IMG/VR virus record: IMGVR_UViG_3300025889_000463
Coordinates: 1 to 34,228 of that record
Direction: 5' to 3' (one strand)
DNA from: a virus
DNA: 34,228 bases
Position numbers and translations under genes: made by a program. The notes beneath the pieces are model-generated. The model was not told the origin of the DNA and searched no databases. It worked only from the letters and a program-made list of their open reading frames with translations. The stretch's first letter is position 1. Each line of letters begins with the position of its first letter. This document shows, in pieces, positions 1 through 24,467 of the stretch.

Positions 1-3000
1 AAGAAGGCACCGGCTAAGAAAAAAGTAGCGCTACCTAAATCCAACGCTACCCCAAGAGACCGGGCTAGAACAGTAAAAAACCTTAAAAATTCTCCCGACC
101 AACTTGCTAGAGTAGCAGCAACAAAATTAACTACTAAAAATAAATATACACCCGACGGTGCTATGTCTTACTACATCAATCTAACTGAAGGAGATGTAGA
201 TTTAGCATTGCGTGAGATAGCGTTCGACTCAGTTAAAGCTCGTGGGCAAAGCGTAAAAAACAAAAATGAAAGAAAAAGGGCAGCTGCAGCTAAAAAATGG
301 TTAGAAAATCGAGCTCCAGAGAATATACCCGCATTAGAAAGACTTACAGAACGTGCGGAAAAAGATGAAATTAAGCGTACAGAAGAGGACGTAAAGAGAA
401 ACCGTTCTAGAAAACGTAAGCGCATAGAAGAATCTATAGTAGACGATTACGTAAATGAAGATGTAGCCGACGACAAAATGACAATGGAGGCTATGAATGA
501 TTTTATTGCGTATCAGGATGAAAGTTTTTACGAGGGGGACTTAGGCGACGAAATAGGTAAAGCGGCAGGTAGGAAGGGTATATCCGATTCCGATGATCCT
601 TTTGCAGCTTTGGATGCTTTTATTACAGATCAAGAGAAACTGCGGGCCGATGCTGTTGCGGCTACTATGGCAAACGCGCCAGCTGCCGTACAAGAACAAG
701 TTAATAGGGGCAGCATACTCGGTGCGCTTAAAGCTGTGTTTGATTCGTCCCCTAATGTAAAAGTTAAAAGTATTACGGTAGCGTTAGCTAAAGCTGTGCG
801 CGGGGTGAAACTAACTACGACTTCAGAACTAAATGATGATAAAGGTAACGTCTTAGCTGCCATATACGATAAAGATACTGATACGATTGTAATAAACACG
901 TCCGTAGAACTTAGCACACACGCTATTCTGCATGAGGCAGGGCACGCCGCTACGGTTAAAACACTTGAAAACAAATCCCACCCTACAACAAAAGCACTTA
1001 CTAAACTGTACGAATCATTGAAGGGTAAACTACCTAAAGATTATGGTATGACTTCACTAAATGATTTTGTTACTGAGGCATTCGTAAACCCAGAGTTTCA
1101 AGCCAAGCTAGCTGCTTTCAGACCGTCGGGTAAAGCTAAAACTGGATGGCAAAAATTCTGGGAAGCTGTCGGAAGGATATTCGGCCTAAAAGCAGAAAGT
1201 GCTGGTACAGAAGCCGTAGACCTCATAAACACATTATTAGCTAGCTCACCTGATACGAGAAAAGCTACTGTAATACCAACCGCTTTGGCAGAAGGTAAGG
1301 ATGGGGAAGTAGTAACTCATCTGCTGGCTAATAACAAAAATTTCATAAAAGACACCCCGCTCACATCATCTGCAATATATGACTGGGCTGCAGGTACAGA
1401 AGAGCGGGTAAGGGCTAATTTCTTGAACGGAGTTGGTCTCGAAGCTATAACAGATTTGTTAAAAAATAAAATACCCGCCGCAAAAGAAGTAGAACGTATA
1501 CTGTATAAAATTGATGGGGTGAGAGTAAATGGTATGAAACAGTACCATTACATTCTTGAGCAAGCTAATAAAGCGTTTAAAGGAAACAAAAATGCACGAG
1601 AGACATTTAACACGCTAGTGGCTTCTTCTACTATAAACCGCATAGACCCTACCATAGACGAAGATAAAGTACGTAAGCATTGGCTTGTATATGGAGAATT
1701 TACGCCCGGTAAAACTAAAGATGACCCCGGCACATACAAAAGAGTGGAAGAGAAATTCAACTCTAAAGAGGCTATGGATAAGCGCAAAGCTGTGTTGGAG
1801 GGCAATAAACAGGCTCAAGAAGAAGCAGAAAAGGCAACCGGCAAACCCCCAATCATACTTGGCGAAATAAAAAGTATAGAACCTACCACTAAAAGAATTA
1901 AAGAATACGAAGAAGTGGTTAGGTTGTTTAAATCTCTTAACGCAGAACAGCGTGGTGTGTACACAGGGCTTAGAGATTTTTACAAAGCCATAAACGAAGC
2001 AATAATAAAAGCTGAAGAAGCTAATATAAATAAATTAGAAACAGAAAAAGACGTTAAAAAGACAATACGAGATGTAATGTTTCTTAGAAGACTAGAAGCC
2101 GGTTTTATTGAGCCGTACTTCCCGCTAACACGTTCCGGAGACTACTGGGTAGAGTTTATGTACAAAGACGAAAACGGACAAACCGTATACGGTACAGGTT
2201 CGTTTGACTCTCGGTTACAAAGAAGTAGAGCAATTACAAAACTTAAATCACTTCCAGAAGTAGATGCTTCAACTGTTAAAGCAAGGTCTCTAGCGGAAAC
2301 ACAAAAGCGAACTTACGATAACGCTATACCTATCCCGTTTTTAACTGATTTAAAGAATAAAGTTAAAGCTATGGATATAAAAAGCGAAGAAGGTAAAAGA
2401 CAGGTAAACGAGTTTTTATCTGAAGTAATGTTGCGAGCATTACCAGATCAGACCTTAATGCAAACCCGTATGGTGCGACAAGGAATTGCTTTTTTCGAGG
2501 GGGACGCCCTTACTTCTTTCCAACAACGTGCTCCTCAGTTTATAAGTAGTCTAGCTGGACTAACTTACTCTGTAGATTTAGAACTTGCGGGTAAAAAGGT
2601 ACGAAATCAAAGAGATGCCTTGGATGAAGAAGAGGCTTTAGCAAGAGAAGCTGCCACTATAGTAGCCGGTACGGCACAAGAAACTGGAGAGATGCAGGCG
2701 TTTGGCAAACTACCAAGTTATGTACAGTTTGCTAAAAATCCGTATTTACCGCCAATAAGTCGTTGGCTACGTTCCGGAACCTTTGTATGGACTTTAGGGG
2801 GTAACATAAGCTCCGTCGCAGTTAACTCTTCAATCGTACCTATGGTGCTACAGTCCAGACTTGCTGGTAAATATGGTGGTGTACGTGCTACTCAATCAAC
2901 AGCCATAGCAGCCACAGAGTATGCCAGCACATTCGGTATGGTATCTGTTGATGCCCTTCAAGAAGTAGATGAAAAAGGTAAACCACTTGGAGAGGCTAAA

Positions 3001-4440
3001 ACAAAACTGGAACTCGGCGGGTTTTCTATAACAAACGATTTTTCTGGGGATACTAAAAAACAAGCCCGATTTGCTAAATATGATCCGCTCAAAACAATCT
3101 TAAAAGATCGTGGTATGGATACCCGAACCATTGCTGGTGAAACCTCAGACTTAGATAACCCTACAGCGCCTTGGGTAAACAAACTAAATTATTGGTCTGG
3201 ATTCCTGTTTAACCACTCTGAACGCGGCATAAGGCAGGTAAGTGCGATGAGCACCTATCGTTTGGAGTTAGAAAACTTGGTGGCGAAAGACAGGGGGGTC
3301 AAGGAAGGTAAAGTTTCTTTTAAAGATATAACCGATGCCGAAATAGCCAAATTTGGAGAACAGGCTGCCGAAACCGCTATAGATACAACTTTGTACGTTA
3401 ACTCATCGGCCCTGCTTACTACTGCGCCTAGAATTGCACAGACTTCGGTTGGGGCTTTGGCGTGGCAATTTAAAAGAGTACCGGCACAGTTTTTCTATAC
3501 TCACCTACGTATGGTTAAAACTTTATTCGACGACGCTATCGGTAAAGCTAGAACTGAAACGGAGCGAGAAGAAGCTAGAGTATTAAGGAATACGTTCTTC
3601 TACTTAACTGTAACCGGTGGTGCGTTGGTTGGCGTAAAAGGCATACCGATGTACGGTATAATAACTTCTATTATGAACTTGTTCTTAGAAGATGATGAGG
3701 ATGACGCCAATACCCTTATTGCTAAAATGATAGGGGAAGAGAAGTACTACGGACTTATAGCCTCATATGCGGGGGTAGATTTAACAGACCGTATAGCGTT
3801 AACCAACCTTATGGTACGAGACAGAGGTAATTACCGACCAGATAGTCAACTGGAAGGACTTGCCGAGGCATGGCTTGGTCCTACATATGGGGTTGGTATA
3901 CGGGCTGCGGGTGGTCTAATTGACTTGTTTGATGATAATCCAGCTAATAAAGATCGGGCTCTGGAATCCTTCATACCTACGGGACTATCTAATGTAGCTA
4001 AATCCTACAGGTTCTACACTAAAGGTTACGAAACCGGTAGGGGAGACGCAATAATATCTGAAGAGCTGCCTATGTCGGATATCATTGGTCAGGCTATGGG
4101 TTTTTCTCCCGCCTCAAACAGAGCAGCTAGGGATAGATTATCTGTAAACATTAGAAAGGATCAAGGTAGGCAAGCTAGATCACTTAAGATTCTGGATAAA
4201 ATTATCTATGGTCTAGAGAATGGAAGGGAGGAACTGGTATCGGAAGGTATAGCGGATATGGCTGAATACAACAAAGACCATCCAACTAGACCTTTATCTA
4301 TAGATTCTATCAAACGTTCAATGAGTGGGAGGCAGCGCCGTAGTGAAAGCGCAATACTTACGGGTGGGGCTCCAGTTGAAAGGAACGCTGTCTTAGAAAT
4401 GATTCAATCTAACCGAGAATTTGAAGAAGGATATGACTAA
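1..4440 (+). CDS. Giant virion-type polyvalent protein with HEXXH metallopeptidase motif (5' end outside window)
   Basis: The frame is open from base 1, so the gene starts upstream; the in-window ATG at 163 is internal or at best an alternative start. At least 1480 residues are visible. The first residues are Lys/Ala-rich (KKAPAKKK), followed by a charged helical region. A zinc-protease signature HEAGH is encoded at 931-945. The C-terminal third has hydrophobic stretches (about 3590-3690) and ends in a charged tail. Very long proteins with an embedded HEXXH domain are typical of phage large polyvalent or internal virion proteins that can be ejected with the DNA; that role is inferred. It points the same way as the head genes at the right of the window, so it is probably the last late gene. 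Its stop codon touches the terminator of the opposing early operon. I am confident of the coding region and less so of the exact function. Confidence 0.85.
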   Translation, partial: KKAPAKKKVALPKSNATPRDRARTVKNLKNSPDQLARVAATKLTTKNKYTPDGAMSYYINLTEGDVDLALREIAFDSVKARGQSVKNKNERKRAAAAKKWLENRAPENIPALERLTERAEKDEIKRTEEDVKRNRSRKRKRIEESIVDDYVNEDVADDKMTMEAMNDFIAYQDESFYEGDLGDEIGKAAGRKGISDSDDPFAALDAFITDQEKLRADAVAATMANAPAAVQEQVNRGSILGALKAVFDSSPNVKVKSITVALAKAVRGVKLTTTSELNDDKGNVLAAIYDKDTDTIVINTSVELSTHAILHEAGHAATVKTLENKSHPTTKALTKLYESLKGKLPKDYGMTSLNDFVTEAFVNPEFQAKLAAFRPSGKAKTGWQKFWEAVGRIFGLKAESAGTEAVDLINTLLASSPDTRKATVIPTALAEGKDGEVVTHLLANNKNFIKDTPLTSSAIYDWAAGTEERVRANFLNGVGLEAITDLLKNKIPAAKEVERILYKIDGVRVNGMKQYHYILEQANKAFKGNKNARETFNTLVASSTINRIDPTIDEDKVRKHWLVYGEFTPGKTKDDPGTYKRVEEKFNSKEAMDKRKAVLEGNKQAQEEAEKATGKPPIILGEIKSIEPTTKRIKEYEEVVRLFKSLNAEQRGVYTGLRDFYKAINEAIIKAEEANINKLETEKDVKKTIRDVMFLRRLEAGFIEPYFPLTRSGDYWVEFMYKDENGQTVYGTGSFDSRLQRSRAITKLKSLPEVDASTVKARSLAETQKRTYDNAIPIPFLTDLKNKVKAMDIKSEEGKRQVNEFLSEVMLRALPDQTLMQTRMVRQGIAFFEGDALTSFQQRAPQFISSLAGLTYSVDLELAGKKVRNQRDALDEEEALAREAATIVAGTAQETGEMQAFGKLPSYVQFAKNPYLPPISRWLRSGTFVWTLGGNISSVAVNSSIVPMVLQSRLAGKYGGVRATQSTAIAATEYASTFGMVSVDALQEVDEKGKPLGEAKTKLELGGFSITNDFSGDTKKQARFAKYDPLKTILKDRGMDTRTIAGETSDLDNPTAPWVNKLNYWSGFLFNHSERGIRQVSAMSTYRLELENLVAKDRGVKEGKVSFKDITDAEIAKFGEQAAETAIDTTLYVNSSALLTTAPRIAQTSVGALAWQFKRVPAQFFYTHLRMVKTLFDDAIGKARTETEREEARVLRNTFFYLTVTGGALVGVKGIPMYGIITSIMNLFLEDDEDDANTLIAKMIGEEKYYGLIASYAGVDLTDRIALTNLMVRDRGNYRPDSQLEGLAEAWLGPTYGVGIRAAGGLIDLFDDNPANKDRALESFIPTGLSNVAKSYRFYTKGYETGRGDAIISEELPMSDIIGQAMGFSPASNRAARDRLSVNIRKDQGRQARSLKILDKIIYGLENGREELVSEGIADMAEYNKDHPTRPLSIDSIKRSMSGRQRRSESAILTGGAPVERNAVLEMIQSNREFEEGYD

Positions 4441-4486: not shown

Positions 4487-4708
4487 TTACTTTAGTCTCC
4501 AAACTCTAACTCCATACTTACCATTTTCTATACGAACACGTTTGGCTATATCTTGTTTATTTATTTTTGCTGCTTCTACTAAATGTTCTACTGCTTTTGC
4601 TGTATCCAGACATGGAATAAACACTGACGCCCCCGGTGTAAACTTGTCCCAATCGATTACTACCCGTATACCATCCGGCGAAATATCAGTCAGCATGAAC
4701 CTCGTCAT
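4487..4708 (-). CDS. Small hypothetical protein, last gene of the early operon
   Basis: This 73-residue protein has no family I recognise. It has mixed alpha/beta character with a basic C-terminus (GVRVWRLK). The start at 4708 is supported by a GGAGA Shine-Dalgarno site about six bases upstream, inside the 3' end of the primase-helicase gene, which it overlaps by 23 bases. That overlap suggests translational coupling to the replication gene. It is followed directly by the operon terminator. A later in-frame ATG (4696) is possible but has a worse site. Confidence 0.7.
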   Translation of the reverse strand: MTRFMLTDISPDGIRVVIDWDKFTPGASVFIPCLDTAKAVEHLVEAAKINKQDIAKRVRIENGKYGVRVWRLK

Positions 4709-7598
4709 CGTTTTCTCCGTCTTCCCATTCCACCATCAACAGGTGCTGTAGCGGCGTTTTAAGTTTCGTACCTTTACCTAGCCGCATCCTTACTTTTTGT
4801 GCCCCCATGTATTTAGTTAAAAGTTCACGTACTCCATTGTGGTGATGTCCTCGTTTAACGCACCACTCTTTAAACGGTGCTGGGACTAAGTACAATCTGT
4901 TTATGTCGTACTCTAACCTGCCTACCCACTGATAAAGAGGTACAGCATCCGGCATTATAAGGTGCTGCTTTTGTGGATCATTAGTACGTGCATCATCGGT
5001 ACTACGAACCCTTAATATACCCCGTGGGTGTTCGGCCAAGTACTGTGCCACTAAATCCTGTACATCCACTACCATAGCCTGTAAATCCTCCTTTGCTAAC
5101 ATAAGTTTTTGTACCATCCAATCATAGAGAGCCTCCAAATTCCAATCCAGCAGCCCTATTTTCTTTGCAATGGTAAGACCCGAAAATACTACAGCAGTCT
5201 GAGCAACCCAAAAACGATGTTGTGAATCTAATTCCGCGTCCTGCAGTAGCTGGTTGCGAGTGTCCAAGACCTGCTTTTCTACCGACTTCATATTGTTAAG
5301 TATATGTTGTATGTATATTTCTCCTGCATGGCCGTAGTTTTTAGCAAGATCGTCATTGAGTTTATTAGCCGCATCTGTTTGGGCTTTGGATGTTAGCTTC
5401 TTACTAGCCACTACTTCTAACATACGCCCGAATTCTCCCTTAGCATGAGTACGGTGCTTACTAACTATCTCCTGTAGGCTTGTGTTCCCGCTAGTGCCTA
5501 CAAGCAATGCCCACTCTGCCCCTCTATAACGCTCTTCGTTTTGCCCACTACTACTAAGCCTGTTTTTCTGCTCTCCATCACAAGCCCCGTACACAAATTC
5601 ACTAGCGGGTTCAGGTTTGTAGTTAGTTATCTCATCAATGTACAGAACCATATTCTTCCATATTTCCGCCCTGTTCCACGCTGAATTGCCAGTGTCCTTA
5701 CCCCGTAAAACTAGCTTTTTATGATTGCCCCATACCGAAGCTCCTGCCAGCATACCGGTAGTTTTTCCATAACCTGTGTCTGTACTCATTAAATGATAGA
5801 TAGCTCCAGCAACGTTGGGTATAAACTGCATCAATGGAGCTCCAAAGGACAGGCCGAACATAAACTGATGCTCTTCAAACCCATCTTTGTTGTAGAACTT
5901 AGTTACGTGTTTCCACCCTTCTAACGTACCTTTCTTACGGAACATAGGAAAATACTGAGCGGTTCGCGAACTGGCTGGATTTATAGTAATCTCATTAGCC
6001 CGTATCTCACGTTCCCCTATTACAAAAGCCTTCATGTCCTCTGTCCAACCAAACTGAGTCCGTACATCTACGAAGTCTTGCCCGTCTTTACCTTGCAGTT
6101 TATTTATCCATGCCCCTACATAAACCATAAGCGCGTCTGCCTGTTTGTTTAAAACAAATATGTCGTTCTTACCCATAACCTTTCTGAACTGTTCTTTTGA
6201 AGTCAAGTCACTCATGGGTATTACAAAAGTCTGTATGCCTTCTCTGTCGGTATGGTGTTTAAACTCAAATGACGGCCCTTCAAACGGATCACGCAGTCGT
6301 TTGGTTATATATAAAGGTCGCTTGTATATGGTCTCTTCGTATGTGGTGCCGTCATCCTTCTCTACACTTATGTAAATTCCTCCACTGGCTGCTCTTTTAT
6401 ATGGAAACGGATACTCTGGTATTTTAACTGTCTGTGTTTTTGTAGGCGGAGGTAGCGGAATCCCTTCTTCGTCGTTACTATCACTACCCTCACTACTGTT
6501 TACTGTACCCTCTTCGGTAAATTGCTCGTCATATACCTCGACTACCACCTCGGCAGATTCGGCTTCACGTATTTCCATACATAGTTTTATAGGAGAACGA
6601 ATTTTACCTGACTGCTTATGTGGGCAGCCTTCGCATCCTTCTGGGTTATCGAATTCAAACGTACTGCATAAGTGTGGGGTTTCTATGGAGGCGGCTATTT
6701 TGTCTGTTTCTTCTGGTGAATACCTATCATACCCTTTGGATATCAGGTGTATGGCTTTGTCTCCATCTACATCACAGTACTTAGCTATAGAAAGTACGTG
6801 TAACCAATCCGCATATGAAAGATCGTTAGGTTTTGTTATAGCTCTGTGAATCTGAGCACACCCATTACCTGCTGCATTAGCCTCCAAAAGTTTACCGAAC
6901 CGCTTGCGGTACTTATCTATCCCCATGGCACGGGCCATGTCTTTCGCATCTTCACTGCTGTATTCGGATGGCGAAACAGTCAATATGTTGTCAGGTAAAT
7001 TTTCATTAAACACATCCAAACTAACACTTGGATTTAGTTCTTTATTTATTACCTTAACATCTAGCGGTGGGTCACCTTTAAAGTTATGGGTATTAGGTAC
7101 ACGTAGTATACGCGCAGCATCCGCACTTACTGTCCGGTCTATCTCCAATCCGAAATCCATACAGGCAGATTTCAAACGAATGGCTACAGGTTTCCACTCT
7201 TCTTTAGAATACGCACGATCAAGTACCCAGTACACGTGCAAGCCGCGCCCAGAGTTAACAACCGCAGTAAATGCAGGTAGTTTATACTTTACCCTGAACT
7301 CTCGTAGTGCTTTTATACCATCTGCTTGGGTAGCGTATGGCTTACCAACTCCACAGTCTAAGTCTATGAACAGACTCTTTATCTGTAACGAATTTGCTGC
7401 CTTACGGCTATCTCCGTTCTTAAAAGTTGATAAACTGAAGTATGCGTCAAACCCACTGTCGTCAAAATTACGCGCTTCTTGCTCGGCTTCAGTTAGCGAA
7501 GTAACGAATTTGTGTATTACCTTATCTTCTTTTATACCTACTATGCAGTAATATCCTTCGTCACCAAGAACCGCCTCAAGAAATTCCTTGGTTTCCAT
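4686..7598 (-). CDS. Primase-helicase fusion (AEP/PrimPol-like, PriCT-like and SF3/DUF927-like domains)
   Basis: Replication protein of about 970 residues. Near residues 76-81 it has FIDLD, the D-x-D metal motif of archaeo-eukaryotic-type primases, followed by GRGLHVYW and ARILRVPNT, matching the later motifs of RepB/PrimPol-like primases. A linker resembling the PriCT-2 module (ADWLHVLSIA..GYD) and a small cysteine cluster follow. The C-terminal half has a Walker A (TDTGYGKTT, Lys about 612) and Walker B (LYIDE, Asp about 655), as in DUF927-type helicases. It probably primes and unwinds DNA at the phage fork with the polymerase encoded upstream. The frame extends to a GTG at 7628, but that codon lies inside a strong hairpin; I chose the ATG at 7598, although its Shine-Dalgarno site is weak. 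Confidence 0.85.
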   Translation of the reverse strand: METKEFLEAVLGDEGYYCIVGIKEDKVIHKFVTSLTEAEQEARNFDDSGFDAYFSLSTFKNGDSRKAANSLQIKSLFIDLDCGVGKPYATQADGIKALREFRVKYKLPAFTAVVNSGRGLHVYWVLDRAYSKEEWKPVAIRLKSACMDFGLEIDRTVSADAARILRVPNTHNFKGDPPLDVKVINKELNPSVSLDVFNENLPDNILTVSPSEYSSEDAKDMARAMGIDKYRKRFGKLLEANAAGNGCAQIHRAITKPNDLSYADWLHVLSIAKYCDVDGDKAIHLISKGYDRYSPEETDKIAASIETPHLCSTFEFDNPEGCEGCPHKQSGKIRSPIKLCMEIREAESAEVVVEVYDEQFTEEGTVNSSEGSDSNDEEGIPLPPPTKTQTVKIPEYPFPYKRAASGGIYISVEKDDGTTYEETIYKRPLYITKRLRDPFEGPSFEFKHHTDREGIQTFVIPMSDLTSKEQFRKVMGKNDIFVLNKQADALMVYVGAWINKLQGKDGQDFVDVRTQFGWTEDMKAFVIGEREIRANEITINPASSRTAQYFPMFRKKGTLEGWKHVTKFYNKDGFEEHQFMFGLSFGAPLMQFIPNVAGAIYHLMSTDTGYGKTTGMLAGASVWGNHKKLVLRGKDTGNSAWNRAEIWKNMVLYIDEITNYKPEPASEFVYGACDGEQKNRLSSSGQNEERYRGAEWALLVGTSGNTSLQEIVSKHRTHAKGEFGRMLEVVASKKLTSKAQTDAANKLNDDLAKNYGHAGEIYIQHILNNMKSVEKQVLDTRNQLLQDAELDSQHRFWVAQTAVVFSGLTIAKKIGLLDWNLEALYDWMVQKLMLAKEDLQAMVVDVQDLVAQYLAEHPRGILRVRSTDDARTNDPQKQHLIMPDAVPLYQWVGRLEYDINRLYLVPAPFKEWCVKRGHHHNGVRELLTKYMGAQKVRMRLGKGTKLKTPLQHLLMVEWEDGENDDEVHAD

Positions 7599-7620
7599 AG
7601 TTTTTCCGTATAAGAGGATT

Positions 7621-7640
7621 AGGGGCACCGCAGTGCCCCT
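7621..7640 (-). other. Perfect 8-bp hairpin between the SSB-like gene and the primase gene
   Basis: AGGGGCAC and GTGCCCCT form a perfect stem with a CGCA loop. No T-run follows on either strand, so it is not a textbook terminator. In the leftward transcript it sits between the stop of the ssDNA-binding-like gene (7667) and the primase start (7598). It may be an attenuator, an RNase processing site or a 3'-end stabiliser. Confidence 0.6.
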
Positions 7641-7666: not shown

Positions 7667-8551
7667 TTAATCGTCGAAGTCAGCCAACAAACTGGCAAGA
7701 TCAATGTCAGCCGGAGACTCGACTTTCTTGTTTTTCTTCGACTTCTTGACCTTGGGTTCTTCTTCAGATGCTTCGACCTTTACCTTCGGTTTTGGCAATG
7801 CTGGTGCATCACTGTCTTCCTTTGGTTTTACTGTTAAAGCAATTAGCCTTGCTGTGTCTTCAGATTTCTGATTTTCCAATGCCATCATAAGTTCGTCTTT
7901 ATCCAACATACGCACCGGCTTAAAGCATAGCTTGGGTGTAGATGAATCAGTATCGAAACGTATTTCTGTAAGTAGAGAAGCCAACGGCGCTTTCTGAGAG
8001 TCTAAAAAACGGGCGTAGGTTTGAAGCCCCATCTTTTGTTTGTTATCACCAAAAACACTAGTTGCAGGTAAGGATAGTTGGTATACGTCTTTAGACTTAA
8101 CAGTACCAGTCTCGTCTGCCAACATAACCGCTACTCGTTGAGAATAACGACACGCTCTACCTTCACCCATGCCGGAACCTTTGACGTTTTGAGGACAGTC
8201 GAAACATGTATCGGACTGTACGTCATCAGCTAAAACGTCTTCGGAAGGTCGCCCAGTTTTTGTATCGCCAGACCAACAAGTAGGTGGATTAGTTTGTCCC
8301 GGTACGTACTGCCCAGCAAAATACATGCGAGATATGGGTGCAGTTTTAACTATCACCACGTTTATAGCCCGCTGTTCAAGTTCTCCTACCTCTTGACCCC
8401 CTACTACTTTTCGGAAAACACCACCCCGAATACTTAGGCGATTGGTTCCGCCACTGGATATGCGTCCGGAAGCGTTAGTATCTGGTTGAAGCTGTGCCAG
8501 TAGGTCTTTGTATTCGGCTGGCATGTTCTCAAATAAAGTTATTTCGCTCAT
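7667..8551 (-). CDS. Putative single-stranded DNA-binding protein with Cys cluster and acidic tail
   Basis: This 294-residue protein starts at an ATG that overlaps the previous stop as ATGA, with GAGGAAAATTT upstream. The middle has a cysteine set (TCWSGD, CFDCP, ACRYS) that could bind zinc. The C-terminus is a long Lys/Glu/Pro linker ending in an acidic tip with aromatic residue (LASLLADFDD), the style of tail that phage SSBs use to recruit replication partners. Its position between an HTH gene and the primase-helicase fits a replication role. I infer SSB from tail, size and context; the OB fold is not visible by eye. It could instead be another nucleic-acid-binding accessory protein. Confidence 0.55.
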   Translation of the reverse strand: MSEITLFENMPAEYKDLLAQLQPDTNASGRISSGGTNRLSIRGGVFRKVVGGQEVGELEQRAINVVIVKTAPISRMYFAGQYVPGQTNPPTCWSGDTKTGRPSEDVLADDVQSDTCFDCPQNVKGSGMGEGRACRYSQRVAVMLADETGTVKSKDVYQLSLPATSVFGDNKQKMGLQTYARFLDSQKAPLASLLTEIRFDTDSSTPKLCFKPVRMLDKDELMMALENQKSEDTARLIALTVKPKEDSDAPALPKPKVKVEASEEEPKVKKSKKNKKVESPADIDLASLLADFDD

Positions 8552-8799
8552 AAATTTTCCTCGTCGTCAAAATCTAACTCAAGTTGTTTTGGGTTTTTAA
8601 CAGGGGTAGTGTCCTGCTCTGGTGCTTCCTGTTTCAAAGCTGCCACTACAGCCGGTATATTAAAACGGTACGTATTCCCAACCTTTATATATGTGGTTTT
8701 GGGTATGTATCCCTTTGTAACCCAGTCTCTAATAGTGGGAACTTTGACAGAAAGATAGTTTGCTAGATCATCTACTGGAGAGTAGGTATCTTCCGTCAC
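8548..8799 (-). CDS. Small helix-turn-helix DNA-binding protein
   Basis: This 83-residue protein starts at GTG 8799. An excellent TAAGGAGG site lies five bases upstream, and the start overlaps the previous stop as GTGA; the longer TTG-initiated reading is unsupported. Residues about 10-55 (DLANYLSVKVPTIRDWVTKG, then YRFNIPAVVAAL) fit the MerR/excisionase-like winged HTH layout: helix, recognition helix, wing, helix. The tail is acidic (DFDDEENL). It may be an operon regulator, a replication accessory or a directionality-factor relative. No integrase is visible, so excision is unlikely to be its role here. Confidence 0.7.
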   Translation of the reverse strand: MTEDTYSPVDDLANYLSVKVPTIRDWVTKGYIPKTTYIKVGNTYRFNIPAVVAALKQEAPEQDTTPVKNPKQLELDFDDEENL

Positions 8800-9194
8800 T
8801 TTTTCCTCCTTACTGTAACAGTGTATTCGCTTTCGCAATTTAACCCCGGTGGTAGTAGCTCGGGATTATCCTCAAGAAACTGCTTTATGTTACCTTGATG
8901 GATTCGTTTCTCTAGAAGCTCGGGGACCCCGTGATCTAGAATAAATTCGTTCATGGCTTCCCAGTCGGAAGTCCAATATTTTTGGCGTATCGAACGATAA
9001 AATGTACCTGATGCCGTTCGTACAGACTCGACTCCGGAATCTTTACAGTGTTCCAGTAATGCAGTCTCAATAATTTTTAACTTATCGCTTAGTTCCTGTT
9101 CTTCTTCACGAGCCTTGGCAGCGACTTCGTTTTTCTTATCTCGTATTTTTATGTAGACAGATACTAAACGCTCTAGGTCTGGCGTAAGTGTCAT
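8796..9194 (-). CDS. Conserved-looking phage protein with N-terminal coiled coil
   Basis: This 132-residue protein begins with a charged helical segment (about residues 10-50) typical of a coiled coil. A compact C-terminal part follows, with PELLPPGLNCESEYTVTVRR near the end, a beta-like ending I associate with small phage proteins next to SSB and polymerase genes. I cannot name the family. A GAGG site lies upstream of the ATG at 9194. The gene overlaps the HTH gene start by four bases and follows the SNF2 helicase gene after 60 bases. Context suggests a replication or recombination accessory role; this is inference. Confidence 0.7.
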   Translation of the reverse strand: MTLTPDLERLVSVYIKIRDKKNEVAAKAREEEQELSDKLKIIETALLEHCKDSGVESVRTASGTFYRSIRQKYWTSDWEAMNEFILDHGVPELLEKRIHQGNIKQFLEDNPELLPPGLNCESEYTVTVRRKK

Positions 9195-18062: not shown

Positions 18063-19283
18063 TCATACTTTTACGTGAATGACATCCCCAACAGGGGGGA
18101 CGAACCGCTTTGTACTTGTAATGCACCACAGAACAGGCACATCCCAAGTACCATGAACACCACCAAGGTACCCGTCAGTGAACACTATCACCGCCTGTGC
18201 CTTGATGTTGTTATCTTGCATATACTTGTTTACACAAGTTATGTCAGTGCCACCACCGCCTGTTGGCTTAGTGGACTGCGCTACTGTAAGTAAGTCATCA
18301 CCACCCTCGCCATACAACTCAGAGCGGCATACCTTGGTATCCCAATATATAATGCGTACCCTTGTTGGATTGACGTTGTTGATTATGGCTTGTAACTCCG
18401 ACAGGAACCTAGTCAACTCGCCTTGCCCGATACTGCCAGATGTATCTACTGCAATAACAAGCTCGTCCACTTTCTCACTGACACCGCTTGGCATGTAGAT
18501 ACCCGCATGCAGAAACCGCCTGTTGGGTCTGGAATAACTTGCGTAGTCAGAGCCTTTACACGTAGTCGTAACAAAGTCACGTAGCACTTGTCGCCAGTCG
18601 ATCTCTGGCTGTAGTAGCCTGTCGATACTGCGAGTGCCGCCGCTACCCATCTTACCAGCAGCAAGTACACCCTGACGTATGGCTGTGTCTATCTGCTCGG
18701 CTAGCTGCTTGGCTTCCTCATCAGACATACTGGCAGCACCATCCCAGTCATGGTGATCCATAGAACCCTGACCTTGACCTTGACCCTGACCTTGACCTTG
18801 GTCTTGCTTCTCTTGATACAGAATATTGAACACCTGATCGGCGTCCATATCAGTGAAGCGTACATCCAGTAGCCCGATAGGTTCGCCAGTCTGTTTATCG
18901 ACAGGCATTTTGGCGAAGCCGTCTCGGTTCTCTCCAGTTATCTGCAAGTTAATAACGTAATCACAAGCCATGTTGGCACACATATGATCGAGTTCATGTA
19001 AGTAATCCCACACATGCAAGTGACGGAACAACTTGTGGTAGTTCTCATGCAGGATAAGGAACCTGAGTTCCGCATCCGAAAGGGATTCGACAAACTCACG
19101 CCCGTACCACTCGTCCCTACCGTTAGTCATGGCTGTGGGTATGTCGTCCTTGATACCCCGTTCACCCATCACCAATATTCCGGACAGGGCAACGTAACGC
19201 TTGTGGTTCATAATATCCACAGTGCACTTAACCAGTCGTTCTTCGGCAGTGCGCTCTCGTACTATTGAAGCTGTAGCAAACAT
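18063..19283 (-). CDS. DUF2201-like metallopeptidase/VWA protein
   Basis: This 406-residue protein starts at 19283 with AGGAGG upstream. The N-terminal domain has HENYH (79-83) and a downstream ACDYVIN (Asp108), the HEXXH plus third-ligand layout of the putative metallopeptidase domain DUF2201_N. After a (Gly-Gln)6 linker and a helical stretch, a von Willebrand A domain carries an intact MIDAS: Asp280-x-Ser282-x-Ser284, Thr346 and Asp370. Proteins of this kind pair with MoxR-type AAA+ ATPases, as ViaA does with RavA, in chaperone-like or remodelling systems. Here the ATPase is the neighbouring gene. A palindromic operator sits in its leader. Confidence 0.9.
   Translation of the reverse strand: MFATASIVRERTAEERLVKCTVDIMNHKRYVALSGILVMGERGIKDDIPTAMTNGRDEWYGREFVESLSDAELRFLILHENYHKLFRHLHVWDYLHELDHMCANMACDYVINLQITGENRDGFAKMPVDKQTGEPIGLLDVRFTDMDADQVFNILYQEKQDQGQGQGQGQGQGSMDHHDWDGAASMSDEEAKQLAEQIDTAIRQGVLAAGKMGSGGTRSIDRLLQPEIDWRQVLRDFVTTTCKGSDYASYSRPNRRFLHAGIYMPSGVSEKVDELVIAVDTSGSIGQGELTRFLSELQAIINNVNPTRVRIIYWDTKVCRSELYGEGGDDLLTVAQSTKPTGGGGTDITCVNKYMQDNNIKAQAVIVFTDGYLGGVHGTWDVPVLWCITSTKRFVPPVGDVIHVKV
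18765..18800. repeat. Hexanucleotide tandem repeat encoding a Gly-Gln linker
   Basis: Six consecutive ACC(T/C)TG units (minus strand CA(A/G)GGT) encode (Gln-Gly)6 between the metallopeptidase and VWA domains. The repeat is in frame and could expand or contract by slippage, changing linker length without breaking the protein. Confidence 0.85.
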
Positions 19284-19300
19284 GCGATTTACCTCCTATG

Positions 19301-19320
19301 TTGATGACACTTGTCATCAA
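19301..19320. promoter_or_regulatory. Palindromic operator-like site, copy 1 (VWA gene leader)
   Basis: TTGATGACACTTGTCATCAA, a perfect 9-bp dyad with a 2-bp centre. It fills the gap between the AAA+ stop (19324) and the Shine-Dalgarno site of the VWA gene. Confidence 0.75.
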
Positions 19321-19323
19321 GTG

Positions 19324-20463
19324 TCACTTCTTATCACCGGCATACATCCAACCGTTCTCCATACACCAGTCGCCAAACTCCCTGCAGTTAACTACGATAT
19401 TACGTTTGACGTAGCTATCCTTACGGGCAGTGTTAACAAAGACACCCTGAAGTTCGCGGGGTAACCTAGCCAGATACTGCATCCAGTTGCTAACCCACTC
19501 GTACTCCATAGTAGCCAGTGCGCGGTCAACTACCATCATCTTAGCAGGGGCAGTGTCCGGAATTTTGGCATTCATCGGATCGCTCTGAATCTCTGCCATC
19601 TTTGGCAGGTCATCGGCTAGCTGTACGAAAGCCATCAAGTCCCGCGCACTACGTTCACCTATCGCACCTATCAATAACTGCAGGGTGATTTGGGTGGGTA
19701 AGTTCTCCCACAGAATATCGCTGGCTGCTTCCAGTGATCGCCATGTTACAAACGCGGTGCGCCATGGTGCTTTGGGGTGGTAGATATGGGGATTGAGTTC
19801 ATCTAACCTACGACTAAACTCTACGCCACTCATACTCCCAACGTCACCCATACGCAGGTCAACATCGGTGAATGACTCGCCAAGCTGTGGGGTCTCGTTC
19901 ACCCAGCCTATGACGGACGGGTGAAGGCCATTCGGTCTGGCAAAGTTCTCAACCCACTCGGGAGCCGTAGACTTACGCATGCGTACAACTATCAGACGGT
20001 TACGATGATGTGGCAGTAGCATATCCCCAACACCTTCGGCACTGAGGTTAGTTGTAGCAAACACGATTGACCCCTCGGGTAACTTGCGTCCACCAGCAGT
20101 CTCACGCTCCAACACAATCCGCAGTAGGGCATTCTTAACGGCAGCGTTTTTACCCATTTCGTCAATCATTAAGATGACGGGCTTCGAGTAATGGAACCCT
20201 AGCTCTTCGTTAATCCCATAGCGCACTACGTTTGTGTCATCAATCTTGTCGAACATAGGCACGAACATATCGCCGATTTCTTTGGTGGTGCTATCGAAAT
20301 ATACCGGTACATAATCTGGTAAACGCTTATGTAACAGCTTCAGCAAAGTAGTCTTACCTGAACCCATGTCACCCTCGACAATTACAGTTCGCTTGGGCCC
20401 AATGGCAATGATGGCTTCTGCTGTTTCGTTAATATCCAGCACGTTAGTTGATGTTAAGTTCAT
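19324..20463 (-). CDS. MoxR-like AAA+ ATPase
   Basis: Residues counted from ATG 20463, which has GGAG nine bases upstream; an in-frame ATG at 20478 lacks a site. The protein has about 379 residues. Walker A is GDMGSGKTT (31-39), Walker B MIDEMGK (Asp101/Glu102), sensor 1 FATTN (135-139) and a candidate arginine finger HHRNR (152-156). The early, compact AAA+ core and a downstream helical lid fit the MoxR branch. Such ATPases work with VWA proteins, and the next gene is one. The C-terminal 200 residues are helical and without other motifs. A short hairpin and a promoter-like sequence lie just upstream. Confidence 0.88.
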   Translation of the reverse strand: MNLTSTNVLDINETAEAIIAIGPKRTVIVEGDMGSGKTTLLKLLHKRLPDYVPVYFDSTTKEIGDMFVPMFDKIDDTNVVRYGINEELGFHYSKPVILMIDEMGKNAAVKNALLRIVLERETAGGRKLPEGSIVFATTNLSAEGVGDMLLPHHRNRLIVVRMRKSTAPEWVENFARPNGLHPSVIGWVNETPQLGESFTDVDLRMGDVGSMSGVEFSRRLDELNPHIYHPKAPWRTAFVTWRSLEAASDILWENLPTQITLQLLIGAIGERSARDLMAFVQLADDLPKMAEIQSDPMNAKIPDTAPAKMMVVDRALATMEYEWVSNWMQYLARLPRELQGVFVNTARKDSYVKRNIVVNCREFGDWCMENGWMYAGDKK

Positions 20464-20487
20464 GGTTCTTATCTCCATAGGTTAAGG

Positions 20488-20559: not shown

Positions 20560-21546
20560 TCAGAAATCCAAAGACGGTTCGGGCAGATTCTTGATTATCT
20601 GATCGACCTTCCATTTGGTGGATAGTCTGGTCTGCACATTGGTACGCAACATATCCGGCGTAACACCGGACAATGTATCGCGTAGCTGGTTGGTCAAGTT
20701 AGTCATAGTCGGATCGTTAGTGACATTACAGGTACGCATTAGCTCTACGATGTTGGTAATGTTAGACACCAACGTATCGCGGAACCCAGTCTTGTCTTTA
20801 GCGTCACTGTAATCCAACATAGATGACATATTGACCAGCGGCTTACGTAGTCTCTCAAACACATCTGCGTAAGCAGCTTCCATCCTACGCTTGAGTACAC
20901 CCTCGTACTGGCGGTGCATAGCACGGGCAGCCTCGTCACCGATCTTGACACGGTGGTCATCAGGATCGGCAATGAATTCATAATCGACCCGTATCCCTAT
21001 CCTGCGATCAAGCTCGTACACACTCGGGTACTGCGACTCGTCAAACATGTCACCCAGATGTTCCTGTGCGGCAGCTGCAGCACGGGCGTAGTCGTCCAAA
21101 AACTGATTCTTGAGTTCATAAAACTCATACGCCATAGAGTTAGGCAGCACGTTACGGTCAGCATCAATACCCAGCGTGTTGATATAGTCTATCAGCTTGA
21201 CGTTGGGCAAGTACCGCTGTCCCAAGTTACCCCAAGGCAGCGTGGCGGCTATGTGGTAACGGTAGATAGCGCGGCTTTGTTCCTGTAAAGCCTCGTGTAC
21301 TTTAGACTCGATCAGCTTTTTCTTAGCTGATACGGCCTTGCTGTTCGCACCCTTGAGCTTGGCCAACGCTCTGGCCGCTACTGGATCGCTCTTAGTCATG
21401 TCAGGTACATGCCTAGTTAAGCTAACCAGCTTGCCAGATGACGCGATGCTCGGCACGTGCATGTCTTGCACCTCCGGAAGCGGTTCGGCGTAGCTAGTTG
21501 CGATTAGTGCGTCTATCTCGTTGTTTAAGTTACGTATATCTTTCAT
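20560..21546 (-). CDS. Helical protein, first gene of the MoxR/VWA module
   Basis: This 328-residue protein is predicted by eye to be almost wholly alpha-helical, with Lys/Ala-rich and Ala-rich helices (KKKLIESKVHEAL, YARAAAAAQEHL) and no enzyme motif. GAGGAAAATGCT precedes the ATG at 21546. The palindromic operator and a duplicated 50-base leader lie directly upstream. The first 16 residues match the start of the protein at 14024. As the promoter-proximal partner of an AAA+/VWA pair it is a candidate substrate, adaptor or effector of that machine; this is inference from gene order. Confidence 0.75.
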   Translation of the reverse strand: MKDIRNLNNEIDALIATSYAEPLPEVQDMHVPSIASSGKLVSLTRHVPDMTKSDPVAARALAKLKGANSKAVSAKKKLIESKVHEALQEQSRAIYRYHIAATLPWGNLGQRYLPNVKLIDYINTLGIDADRNVLPNSMAYEFYELKNQFLDDYARAAAAAQEHLGDMFDESQYPSVYELDRRIGIRVDYEFIADPDDHRVKIGDEAARAMHRQYEGVLKRRMEAAYADVFERLRKPLVNMSSMLDYSDAKDKTGFRDTLVSNITNIVELMRTCNVTNDPTMTNLTNQLRDTLSGVTPDMLRTNVQTRLSTKWKVDQIIKNLPEPSLDF

Positions 21547-21561
21547 AGCATTTTCCTCAAG

Positions 21562-21611
21562 TTGTTGATGACAAGTGTCATCAGGGTTACGGTTGAAAAG
21601 CCAACCAGCAG
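21562..21611. repeat. Duplicated leader, copy A
   Basis: Fifty bases that recur at 21851-21900 with a single C/T difference. The segment contains the palindromic operator and a GGTTACGGTTGAAAAGCC stretch. Copy A lies upstream of the 328-residue gene. Confidence 0.85.
21565..21584. promoter_or_regulatory. Palindromic operator-like site, copy 2
   Basis: TTGATGACAAGTGTCATCAG, one base off the perfect dyad. It lies just upstream of the Shine-Dalgarno site of the 328-residue gene. Confidence 0.7.
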
Positions 21612-21850: not shown

Positions 21851-21900
21851 TTGTTGATGACAAGTGTCATCAGGGTTACGGTTGAAAAGCCAACTAGCAG
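21851..21900. repeat. Duplicated leader, copy B
   Basis: Second copy of the 50-base segment at 21562-21611. Its distal end overlaps the stop codon of the zinc-finger gene at 21894. It supplies the operator in front of the 54-residue gene. Confidence 0.85.
21854..21873. promoter_or_regulatory. Palindromic operator-like site, copy 3
   Basis: Same sequence as copy 2, in the gap before the 54-residue gene. Confidence 0.7.
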
Positions 21901-22250
21901 TCGCAACGCCATGACGCGACAAAGACACGCTTGCCGAAAGCATGAGACATTGCGGCCATTACTTCGCCCGCCAGATGGTCATTGAAATATTCTTCTTTAG
22001 ACAGGTTTGTAAAACTACTGGTGATCTCCATGATCAAATCACCGTCAGAGTTAACAATGTCGTAATAATGTTTATTCAATTTTCTATCCCTCTTTGCGTT
22101 TTCCTCAAGTTCAAATTGTTTCCTAGCCCGCCTTGCTGCTCTGTCCCCGCAAACTATGCATGTGTCGTAACCAAGCTCAAGTCTAGCAACAGGGAACATG
22201 TCCCTACAATGTGAGCAGAATGCTGTCCGTTCTTTATTACTATCTTTCAT
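21894..22250 (-). CDS. Zinc-finger protein, first gene of the leftward operon
   Basis: This 118-residue protein starts at 22250 with GAGGAAAACGCC upstream. The N-terminus has Cys12-x2-Cys15 and Cys31-x2-Cys34 (FCSHCRD, CIVCGDRAARRARKQ), a four-cysteine zinc site followed by a basic helix. A separate C-terminal half contains DIVNSDGDLIMEITSSF. The combination resembles small phage nucleic-acid-binding or transcription factors, but I cannot assign a family. It is the first gene after the strong leftward promoter and two tandem operators, the usual place for an immediate-early regulator or host-takeover protein. Confidence 0.75.
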   Translation of the reverse strand: MKDSNKERTAFCSHCRDMFPVARLELGYDTCIVCGDRAARRARKQFELEENAKRDRKLNKHYYDIVNSDGDLIMEITSSFTNLSKEEYFNDHLAGEVMAAMSHAFGKRVFVASWRCDC

Positions 22251-22268: not shown

Positions 22269-22288
22269 TTGATGACAAGTGTCATCAA
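22269..22288. promoter_or_regulatory. Palindromic operator-like site, copy 4
   Basis: TTGATGACAAGTGTCATCAA, a perfect dyad, in the first tandem unit of the leftward leader. Confidence 0.75.
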
Positions 22289-22312
22289 CCAAACACGGTT
22301 TTCACTAAGTTA

Positions 22313-22332
22313 TTGATGACAAGTGTCATCAA
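22313..22332. promoter_or_regulatory. Palindromic operator-like site, copy 5
   Basis: TTGATGACAAGTGTCATCAA, a perfect dyad, in the second tandem unit, about 45 bases downstream of the predicted transcription start. Confidence 0.75.
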
Positions 22333-22383
22333 CCAAACACGGTTTTCACTGGTCTGTTCTACATCGTTCCGGCCAGTGTGTAT

Positions 22384-22412
22384 ATTATCGCATATTTGGG
22401 GGTAAATGTCAA
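22384..22412 (-). promoter_or_regulatory. Main leftward sigma70 promoter
   Basis: On the minus strand a perfect -35 TTGACA (22407-22412), a 17-base spacer and -10 GATAAT (22384-22389, 5 of 6 consensus). This is the best promoter in the window. It would start transcription near 22376, reading through the two tandem operators into the early operon. Confidence 0.8.
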
Positions 22413-22441
22413 GGTTATGTAAACGTGTTTTTTCTAAGATA

Positions 22442-22772
22442 TTGTGACATTTGTTACCTTTTGGTTTTTGGCTAAGGTAACAATATAAACCCCGTAAACA
22501 CTGGGCTGGAGGTGTATTGTGACATTTGTGACAAATGTCCCCCCCTTTCGTAGGTTCCTGAGATTTTTATGCCGGAGGGGGGAGAAGGAACGGAGAAAGT
22601 TTAAAATATGGGAAAATTTTCAGATTCGTAGTTTTGGGGGGGACAAATGGCACAAATGTCACAATACAAAAAACAAAAATAATATATATATATAAATCAA
22701 TCAATTACCCAGTAAATTTAAAGCTGGATAATGTTCCTTTTTGCATTTTTGAAAAGGTAACAAATGTCACAA
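22442..22772. repeat. Nested inverted iterons around an AT-rich core (possible origin)
   Basis: TTGTGACATTTGT occurs four times: forward in 22442-22462 and 22514-22544, reversed in 22637-22667 and 22752-22772. The outer pair is identical over 21 bases and the inner pair is a 31-base imperfect inverted repeat. Between and beside them are purine-rich and AT-rich tracts (ATATATATATAT near 22680). This nested symmetry suits an initiator-bound replication origin or a large regulatory loop. No gene is supported here. Confidence 0.6.
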
Positions 22773-22845
22773 ATGCCCCGATTTTACAGGTACATCTGTT
22801 CCCTTTGTTACAACTGTTACCTTTATTACAGAAAACATGTTTGTC

Positions 22846-22865
22846 TTGATGACAAGTGTCATCAA
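22846..22865. promoter_or_regulatory. Palindromic operator-like site, copy 6
   Basis: TTGATGACAAGTGTCATCAA, the first member of the composite repeat array. Confidence 0.75.
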
Positions 22866-22923
22866 CGAGGCGGCGTTTACGGCGATGCAGCGAGCCGTGC
22901 GGGAACTGGTTTCGGGCAAAACC

Positions 22924-22943
22924 TTGATGACAAGTGTCATCAA
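22924..22943. promoter_or_regulatory. Palindromic operator-like site, copy 7
   Basis: TTGATGACAAGTGTCATCAA, 78 bases after copy 6. Confidence 0.75.
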
Positions 22944-23004
22944 CTTAGTAGCGTAAACGCTGATGCAGCGAGCCGTCGAATAACTGGTTTCAACAGGATT
23001 TAGA

Positions 23005-23024
23005 TTGATGACAAGTGTCATCAA
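23005..23024. promoter_or_regulatory. Palindromic operator-like site, copy 8
   Basis: TTGATGACAAGTGTCATCAA, 81 bases after copy 7. Confidence 0.75.
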
Positions 23025-23191
23025 AGTGTCCGGCGTAGCGCGTTTTGTCTGGGTGGTGTAGTGGGACGTGGGCGTGGGCGTGATGCAGCGAGCCGTGGGA
23101 TAACTGGTTTCATCGGTTTTTTCGAGACAAAAAGAGAGGGGTGTGATGCAGCGAGCCGTGGGATAACTGGTTTCATCGGTTTTTTCGAGAC

Positions 23192-23218
23192 AAAAAAAGG
23201 GAGCCCATACGGGCCCCC
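23192..23218 (-). terminator. Intrinsic terminator of the 248-residue gene
   Basis: GGGAGCCC and GGGCCCCC pair as an 8-bp stem (one G-U in the minus transcript) with an ATAC loop. On the minus strand it is followed by seven T residues (complement of 23192-23198). It lies 24 bases after the stop of the gene at 23242. Confidence 0.8.
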
Positions 23219-23241
23219 TTTTGAGACTTGCTGACTTGCCA

Positions 23242-23988
23242 TTACTTCTTAGCGATCTTATCCATCTCGCTATCGTAATAGGTCTTAGCAGCTTGGCAAT
23301 TGGCTCCCATCATATCGAAGCCCTGCTTTAACCATTTAGCAATCTCATCGGTGCGCTTATTGTGCGGCAGTTTATCCATCTTATACTGCCGATAGAATCG
23401 CATCATTGTCTCTGCGATTTTGAGCTCTACCGATTTCTCGGTGGTCTCTTTCTCAGTATCGGGCTTTTTATCTTCAAGCCACCTAAAGAATTGATCCCGT
23501 TTCTGCGAGCGCTTTATATACGCCGCGTTTTTCAGAGTGCGCTTAGTGTGGAGCGCTTTCTTTTTTGCTTGCAAAAACGGAATTTTAACCGTTTCTTTAT
23601 TATTGGCCCATTCTTTCGAGCCCATATAGGCAATCAATCCGCATGATTCCGTGTTGTCCCACGTATCGCTCTGTCCGCGTATTATCGTGCGGTCGAGATA
23701 GTGAAAGGCTGCCGTTAACATGTACTCAGTAACCGACTTGCGCATGCTAGCGTATAGATCACCGTTCTCATCCAAGTATTCCAACTTAAGTGCGGCGCCC
23801 TTGGTTTCTTCAGGATAGATTTTCCTGAGCTCCCTTTTAAGTGCGCGCTCCAGAGATCTAAAAGCCGTATCTTGATGCGATATAGCAAGATCATCTTGCA
23901 CCATAGAAGTGGCGAGTAAATCAACGGTGTCAGCGTTGAATGCGATGGTAGCGGTCTTGACCGCGGCTTTAACATTTGCGTTAGACAT
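23242..23988 (-). CDS. Orphan leftward gene in the control region (248 residues)
   Basis: ATG 23988 has GGGAG eight bases upstream; the longer frame to 24057 has no site. The protein is helical and basic, with an ERALKRELRKIYPEE helix, a Lys/Arg-rich middle (KKKALHTKRTLKNAAYIKRS) and a C-terminus rich in Lys and aromatic residues. I see no HTH or enzyme motif and do not recognise it. It has its own promoter overlapped by an operator, and its own terminator. That isolation next to iterons makes an initiator, partition or repressor role conceivable, but this is only positional inference. Confidence 0.75.
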   Translation of the reverse strand: MSNANVKAAVKTATIAFNADTVDLLATSMVQDDLAISHQDTAFRSLERALKRELRKIYPEETKGAALKLEYLDENGDLYASMRKSVTEYMLTAAFHYLDRTIIRGQSDTWDNTESCGLIAYMGSKEWANNKETVKIPFLQAKKKALHTKRTLKNAAYIKRSQKRDQFFRWLEDKKPDTEKETTEKSVELKIAETMMRFYRQYKMDKLPHNKRTDEIAKWLKQGFDMMGANCQAAKTYYDSEMDKIAKK

Positions 23989-24089: not shown

Positions 24090-24123
24090 ATTATAAAACT
24101 TTATTGATGACATGTGTCATCAA
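24090..24123 (-). promoter_or_regulatory. Promoter of the 248-residue gene overlapped by palindrome copy 9
   Basis: On the minus strand a perfect TATAAT (24090-24095) lies just downstream of the dyad TTGATGACATGTGTCATCAA (plus strand, 24104-24123), which covers the -35 position. No good -35 hexamer is visible, so the dyad-binding protein may repress or activate this promoter. Confidence 0.6.
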
Positions 24124-24467
24124 AAGTCGCGCTTAAAAGGGAATTGTGCGGGCCCGCATATAAAAGGAAAAGCCGGAACCGGAGACCATACCCGCCCCCA
24201 GCCCCCCGAGCCACCAAATGGTACCGGCGGCGGACAACATATACTATTACGCTCGAACGACTACGTATTCTGAGCAAAACGAGGCCCCACCCCCCTCTTT
24301 TTATACCCACAAAGCCGCAACACCCACCCCCTCCTATATATAAACACCCCCCGTCAAGGAGTCCCAAGTACTTGTTTCCTCTTTTATTTTTACTATATAC
24401 TTCGCAAATCGGCGTACTAGTGGGTATACAAACCCATTAACCAGCTTGCACAAGAGTATTACTGTAT
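24124..24467. other. Intergenic region before the late genes, with strand-biased C/G runs
   Basis: No convincing gene. The plus strand carries C-runs (CCCGCCCCCAGCCCCCC near 24189, CCCCACCCCCC near 24285, CCCCCC near 24349), so the minus strand has clustered G-runs that could form G-quadruplexes. A proline-rich open frame spans it but lacks a ribosome site and looks like a result of the C-runs. A possible rightward promoter is at 24372-24401. Confidence 0.5.
24372..24401 (+). promoter_or_regulatory. Candidate rightward (late) promoter
   Basis: TTGTTT (24372-24377), an 18-base spacer and TATACT (24396-24401), about 65 bases before the small terminase gene. It is the best candidate upstream of the rightward block, but the -35 box is only partly consensus. 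Confidence 0.35.

Follow-up and report, generated by a model that had tools for sequence, protein, structure and literature searches.

Location of the repeats in the phage genome

The virus record IMGVR_UViG_3300025889_000463, which was analysed over its whole length of 34,228 bases (the window; 45% GC overall), contains an array of repeats in front of its early genes, and this raises the question of which proteins read these repeats and for what purpose. The leftward early genes encode DNA polymerase A, a DUF927 primase/helicase at 4686-7628, and an AAA ATPase accompanied by a DUF2201 VWA protein, and the rightward late genes are the terminase and head genes. The array is placed between the terminator of a gene that we call X and a segment of iterons, AT-rich DNA and further iterons, with the promoter of the leftward operon beyond. 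The features of this region are listed here, with a strand where the feature has one.

22384-22412 (-): likely sigma-70 promoter of the leftward early operon, TTGACA-17-GATAAT, with TG before the second hexamer
22448-22816: iterons similar to GTCACAAATG, 10 copies in both orientations, putative origin
22660-22760: AT-rich stretch between the iterons, 22% GC against 45% in the window
23195-23222 (-): hairpin, intrinsic terminator of gene X
23242-23988 (-): gene X (248 aa), proposed dyad-binding regulator

Our best explanation, to which we give a probability of about 0.68 as a whole, is that the segment from 22.4 to 23.2 kb is the main control region of this phage and a probable origin, that the inverted repeats (dyads) found there and elsewhere are dispersed operators bound by X, and that a second repeat, element E, is a separate site.

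Ten iterons were counted within 22420-22850 when up to 2 mismatches were allowed, as compared to 0.3 expected from the density elsewhere. Inverted iterons around an AT-rich stretch point to a probable replication origin. Promoter-like sequences were seen by eye in three relatives (L012, L027, L048) at the place matching the leftward-operon promoter. In a 58.9-kb relative the GC-skew minimum (37,999) lies about 1.4 kb from the array, near the point where gene orientation diverges; GC skew was discarded as evidence for an origin, because it is confounded by gene orientation.

Three further observations concern the surroundings of this segment. The AAA ATPase adjoins the VWA/DUF2201 metallopeptidase-like protein (18063-20478), and the two make up a chaperone-like pair within an early operon. 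C runs abound in the intergenic region between X and terS (24124-24467), and terS is close to the start of many related contigs; possible explanations are difficult assembly, a hypervariable junction or a genome end. A DNA polymerase 100% identical to the window's is also encoded on contigs L005, L006 and L007, which come from different metagenome samples, so this phage, or one very close to it, occurs repeatedly.

Two independent repeats: the dyad and element E

The dyad is a 20-bp inverted repeat, TTGATGACA-NN-TGTCATCAA, with nine sites between 19301 and 24123 (4.8 kb) where 0.01 would be expected by chance. Only three of them belong to the array, and all nine are intergenic with the ORFs as read.

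19301-19320: dyad, 18 nt before the start codon of the VWA/DUF2201 gene (18063-19283)
21565-21584: dyad with 1 mismatch, 19 nt before the start codon of 20560-21546
21854-21873: dyad with 1 mismatch, intergenic
22269-22288: dyad, 19 nt ahead of the start codon of 21894-22250, which encodes a 118-aa protein
22313-22332: dyad, second copy in a 44-nt tandem duplication
22846-22865: dyad, array copy 1, putative operator of X, exact TTGATGACAAGTGTCATCAA
22924-22943: dyad, array copy 2
23005-23024: dyad, array copy 3, absent from the initial annotation
24104-24123: dyad over the -35 region of the likely X promoter (promoter read by eye)
22884-22913 (+): element E, copy 1
22962-22991 (+): element E, copy 2
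23082-23111 (+): element E, copy 3
23145-23174 (+): element E, copy 4, followed by an A-tract and the terminator

Three leftward genes thus have a dyad 18-19 nt before their start codon. The likely X promoter has its -10 sequence, TATAAT, at about 24095-24090 (by eye). At the dyad centre two bases vary and the adjacent A-T pair is kept, an arrangement that would suit a dimer on DNA. The 44-nt tandem duplication (22269-22356) carries two dyads and lies directly before the first leftward gene. A search of viral_contigs with the window's dyad gave a single match (L098), which lies within an unrelated coding gene and was taken as chance.

Element E is a 30-bp sequence, GATGCAGCGAGCCGT-N5-AACTGGTTTC. 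Its four copies are exact, as the initial annotation had it, and none is expected from 100 dinucleotide shuffles; the spacer, given there as five or six bases, is five in all four copies. It had also been proposed that the first two copies are coupled to a palindrome at a fixed distance. They do begin exactly 18 nt after a dyad, and both belong to a 69-nt direct repeat that includes the dyad (80% identical), but the fixed distance is the result of a local duplication, because in relatives the dyads stand before or after E and at other distances. The last two copies are part of a 63-nt tandem repeat (97%), the second copy of which runs into the A-tract of the terminator, as had been described.

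Conserved layout and private dyads in related phages

To find relatives, 80 loci were collected by a TerL search and two more (L011, L012) by the exact 30-mer. About 20 of these loci reach the region, and they have one order: iterons, AT-rich stretch, iterons, dyads together with two to four copies of E, A-tract and terminator hairpin, X, TerS and TerL. The array's absence from near relatives was looked for and not found, and since the layout is repeated in about 20 loci an assembly artefact is unlikely; both had been named as grounds for doubting it. The stretches fetched from HTVC023P, HTVC027P, DSL-LC04 and 023Pt_psg01 contain neither an E pair nor a repeated dyad.

The sequence of the dyad is private to small groups of these phages, and each private dyad recurs at sites of the corresponding kinds; most loci have one copy directly upstream of X. 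Examples of half-sites and spacers are CGCAACA-NN in L012, GCTTACA-NN in L027 and L034, CGGACAA-NN in L048, TGTTAGGGA-NN in L067, L081 and L084, GTATGGA-NN in L071 and L078, TGTAGTGA-N in L065 and L069, and TGTTAGTC-N3/4 in L066 and L085. The iterons vary among close relatives as well (GTCACAAATG, GAAACCAAT, GGTTGCAAT, GGAACAAAT and GTTACCTCT in the window, L012, L013, L027 and L048); they change out of step with the dyad, and the reader of the iterons should co-vary with them too.

Planktothrix phage Pag-Yong1 (L095, OL906435.1) carries 14 dispersed dyads, GGTTCAGNCTGAACC, at L095:6591-35377. An E array was not recognised in this phage. Going by position, its small leftward protein UMO76074.1 might be the counterpart of X. 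It has separate TGTCATACAC repeats near 18100-18480.

Gene X and its co-variation with the dyad

The X proteins tested gave no significant match to Pfam, PHROG, NCBIfam or PDB sequences, and a DNA-binding domain is not recognisable in X. The protein is hypervariable across the relatives. By profile comparison many X proteins fall into two groups, one of which the X of the window resembles only in a C-terminal motif; a relative of this X was not found in viral_contigs. The structure model of the X from L067 is all-helical and fairly confident (pLDDT 84.7, pTM 0.60), with no Foldseek match at E<=0.001. The model of the window's X is poor and unreliable (pLDDT 63).

The relation between X and dyad was studied in close pairs, that is 32 locus pairs with TerL at least 88% identical, which are not independent of each other. 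In all ten pairs with the same dyad the X proteins are related, with scores of 49-92% of self. In all 22 pairs with different dyads X scores only 0-17% of self, even at 99% TerL identity. L065 and L066 are such a pair: TerL is 99% identical, the DNA of the right arm is 92.6% identical over 10.7 kb, and X is unrelated. L065 has 11 dyads of its type and L066 five of its own, with zero sites of the other type in either. In the 5.2 kb compared between L078 and L088 almost everything aligns, at 82-85%, and X is the sole substantial stretch that does not. At the aligned sites of these two the dyad is swapped in place between conserved flanks, and E and the iterons are retained.

One locus, L069, is a mosaic. 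Its X is of the L065 type and five sites (4637-6502) match this type of X; the four distal sites (627-3741) are of the L066 type. L069 apparently is a recombinant between the two regulatory types. The relation is also graded, as X proteins that are only 30-40% identical often have related half-sites, for example TGTTATGGA and TGTTAGGGA. There is one exception, L080, which has the dyad of the L067 type and an X that is not detectably related.

When all pairs are taken together, X and dyad show a modest partial correlation given TerL (0.28), a value reached in 0 of 5000 permutations; the corresponding value for TerL given X is higher, at 0.45. The case for a pairing of X with the dyad is therefore made by the close pairs and not by the global correlation. 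A dyad beside X could simply travel with the X cassette. For the window's own X and dyad the collections contain no relative of the same type, so that the pairing in the window is deduced from its relatives.

Element E as a separate conserved site

The initial annotation treated the dyad and the 30-mer as one composite element. This view does not hold, because the dyad changes with X and is spread over the early region, and E is conserved independently. In L078 and L088 E is identical although X and dyad are swapped, and in general E and the iterons do not track X. From 48 aligned core matches in 20 phages, two or three of which are probably chance or remnant, we obtained the consensus GC-N5-GC-N8/9-GnACTGGTWTC; in the alignment it ends with nACTGG(T/C)(A/T)TC after 8-9 bases. 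ACTGG is invariant partly because it served as the search anchor. Positions 0 and 6-9, which the anchor constrains only loosely, hold 0.8-1.75 bits. The orientation of E is identical in every array examined.

Three candidate roles for E were rejected. X as its reader is incompatible with L078 and L088. A sigma-70 promoter inside E has no -10 sequence in either direction (by eye). A structured RNA finds no Rfam family above chance, and between L078 and L088 the sequence separating the E copies does not align though E does.

In the best explanation E is a separate, directional and putative binding site, the reader of which would be a conserved factor other than X. Its place beside the iterons suggests an origin and its nearness to terS suggests a packaging site; a comparison of E with TerS and other genes favoured neither. 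We consider E most likely to be part of the origin and possibly a packaging site. The earlier idea of an origin or binding-site array thus stays plausible, as the order is conserved in relatives, but not in the form of a single composite element.

The packaging reading can be taken further: E and the A-tract behind it would be the start site of packaging (cos/pac) read by TerS, with the dyads being regulatory. E is multi-copy, directional and independent of X, and it lies 1.3 kb from terS-terL. In addition the window and L012 share the 5' half of E and have TerS proteins 84% identical, closer than either is to that of L013 (75-76%), and nonetheless it is L012 and L013 that have the closer TerL (93%). 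Against this, L065 and L066 differ in the 5' half of E with TerS 99.4% identical, the similarity of E over all pairs shows no link to TerS beyond phylogeny (partial r 0.12), and gene X separates E from terS. We regard such a packaging site as unlikely, though as a reading to be taken seriously.

Candidate readers of the dyads

That X reads the dyads is not the only way to explain their joint change. They could be read by another protein of the phage or the host, for example the HTH protein encoded at 8548-8838, and X would just ride along in a recombination block. X is without a known DNA-binding fold, and the records of L066, L078 and L088 do not include the far left arm, where a co-swapped distal gene is possible. 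However, in the 5-kb comparison of L078 and L088 no large stretch other than X fails to align, the relation of X and dyad is graded, and in the mosaic L069 the dyads nearest to X match it and the distal ones differ. Another reader thus appears rather improbable to us.

A role of the dyads as mRNA hairpins near ribosome-binding sites, acting in stability, processing or translational control instead of as DNA operators, is in our view very improbable. Several dyads do directly precede a Shine-Dalgarno sequence, and as RNA they would fold into 8-bp stems with a 4-nt loop. However, a hairpin loop would have no need of the pair beside the variable NN centre, and yet this pair is kept; three dyads lie in the array far from any start codon, one precedes the -10 sequence of the likely X promoter, and a hairpin role predicts no co-variation with X.

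We consider it highly improbable that the array serves in recombination, attachment or partition (as a centromere), acts as a decoy or is CRISPR-like: multiple directional repeats with an A-tract would fit, but the intervals between the E copies are irregular (48, 90 and 33 nt), which together with the lack of a cas gene among the genes examined bears out the earlier exclusion of CRISPR, nothing was found in favour of the recombination site or decoy once suggested, and an attachment site or prophage was rejected as 8 records of the group contain no tyrosine integrase and one weak TerL relative (53%, partial) in a collection of 84,980 genomes (genome_contigs) gives no sign of a resident form.

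A model for the control region

Returning to X as the reader of the dyads, we infer from the sequence that a dimer of X would bind the dyads as operators of the form 9 bp-N2-9 bp. X would control, and presumably repress, its own promoter, the -35 region of which is covered by a dyad. At the sites before start codons of the leftward early operon, X may block or tune transcription in the manner of a stoperator-like repressor or roadblock. Replication would start at the iterons and the AT-rich stretch, and a conserved factor other than X would read E. With no tyrosine integrase in eight records of the group and one weak relative among the genomes, any immunity would be between co-infecting phages and not between proven lysogens.

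A further, tentative reading combines three points, and we would give it somewhat less than even odds as a whole. X might represent a new family of regulators, all-helical and sequence-specific, that evolves unusually fast in phages that apparently do not integrate; the exchange of operator sets together with X might make nearly identical phages mutually heteroimmune; and E might be a new conserved element for phage origins or packaging with a dedicated reader.

Near-identical environmental phages with different putative regulator-operator pairs exist together with an intermediate mosaic, so the joint change of many dispersed operators and their regulator can be studied on sequenced pairs. The dyads provide a predicted DNA target for an uncharacterised and hypervariable gene family. 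The conserved core of E can serve as a marker of the control region in this phage group and as a target for finding its reader. Pag-Yong1, as a database phage, is a candidate for studying the same scheme in the laboratory.

Comparison with known systems

Iteron-type origins of phages and plasmids consist of direct and inverted short repeats that flank an AT-rich segment in a non-coding control region. The putative origin of the window resembles them in its clustered short repeats beside an AT-rich stretch and in the same layout in relatives; unlike them, it is adjoined by E and dyads. The R-sites of lambda cosB are a few directional terminase-binding repeats with bent DNA near terS-terL. E is similar in being a directional repeat near terS-terL, but here gene X intervenes.

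For the dyads, two systems of mycobacteriophage-type clusters are closest in our comparison. The stoperators of Cluster A phages (L5, Bxb1) are 13-bp asymmetric sites for a monomeric two-domain repressor, with 20-30 sites per genome in mostly temperate phages (PMC6550527, PMC9283540). The dyads are alike in being many short sites dispersed in one genome, also outside promoters, and in having a clade-specific consensus that diverges with the regulator (here the proposed regulator X, in the relatives, with the exception of L080). They differ in being dyads of 16-20 bp, of which 3-14 were seen per record; no domain can be recognised in X, and neither a tyrosine integrase nor a lysogen was found here. 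In Cluster K phages the SAS and ESAS are found just upstream of the start codons of non-structural genes, as inverted repeats with a consensus per subcluster (PMC3203893). The ESAS are 17-bp imperfect repeats with a mostly 4-13 bp variable spacer, tied to the 13-bp SAS at the ribosome-binding site, and were thought more likely to be DNA-binding sites of different specificities (PMC3203893). Like ESAS, the dyads are inverted repeats before start codons and private per clade; a shared SAS-like 13-mer next to the dyads was not noticed on reading. For the ESAS no partner protein is named (PMC3203893), whereas here the neighbouring gene X co-varies. The dyad system would work like stoperators and looks like ESAS, and is a member of neither.
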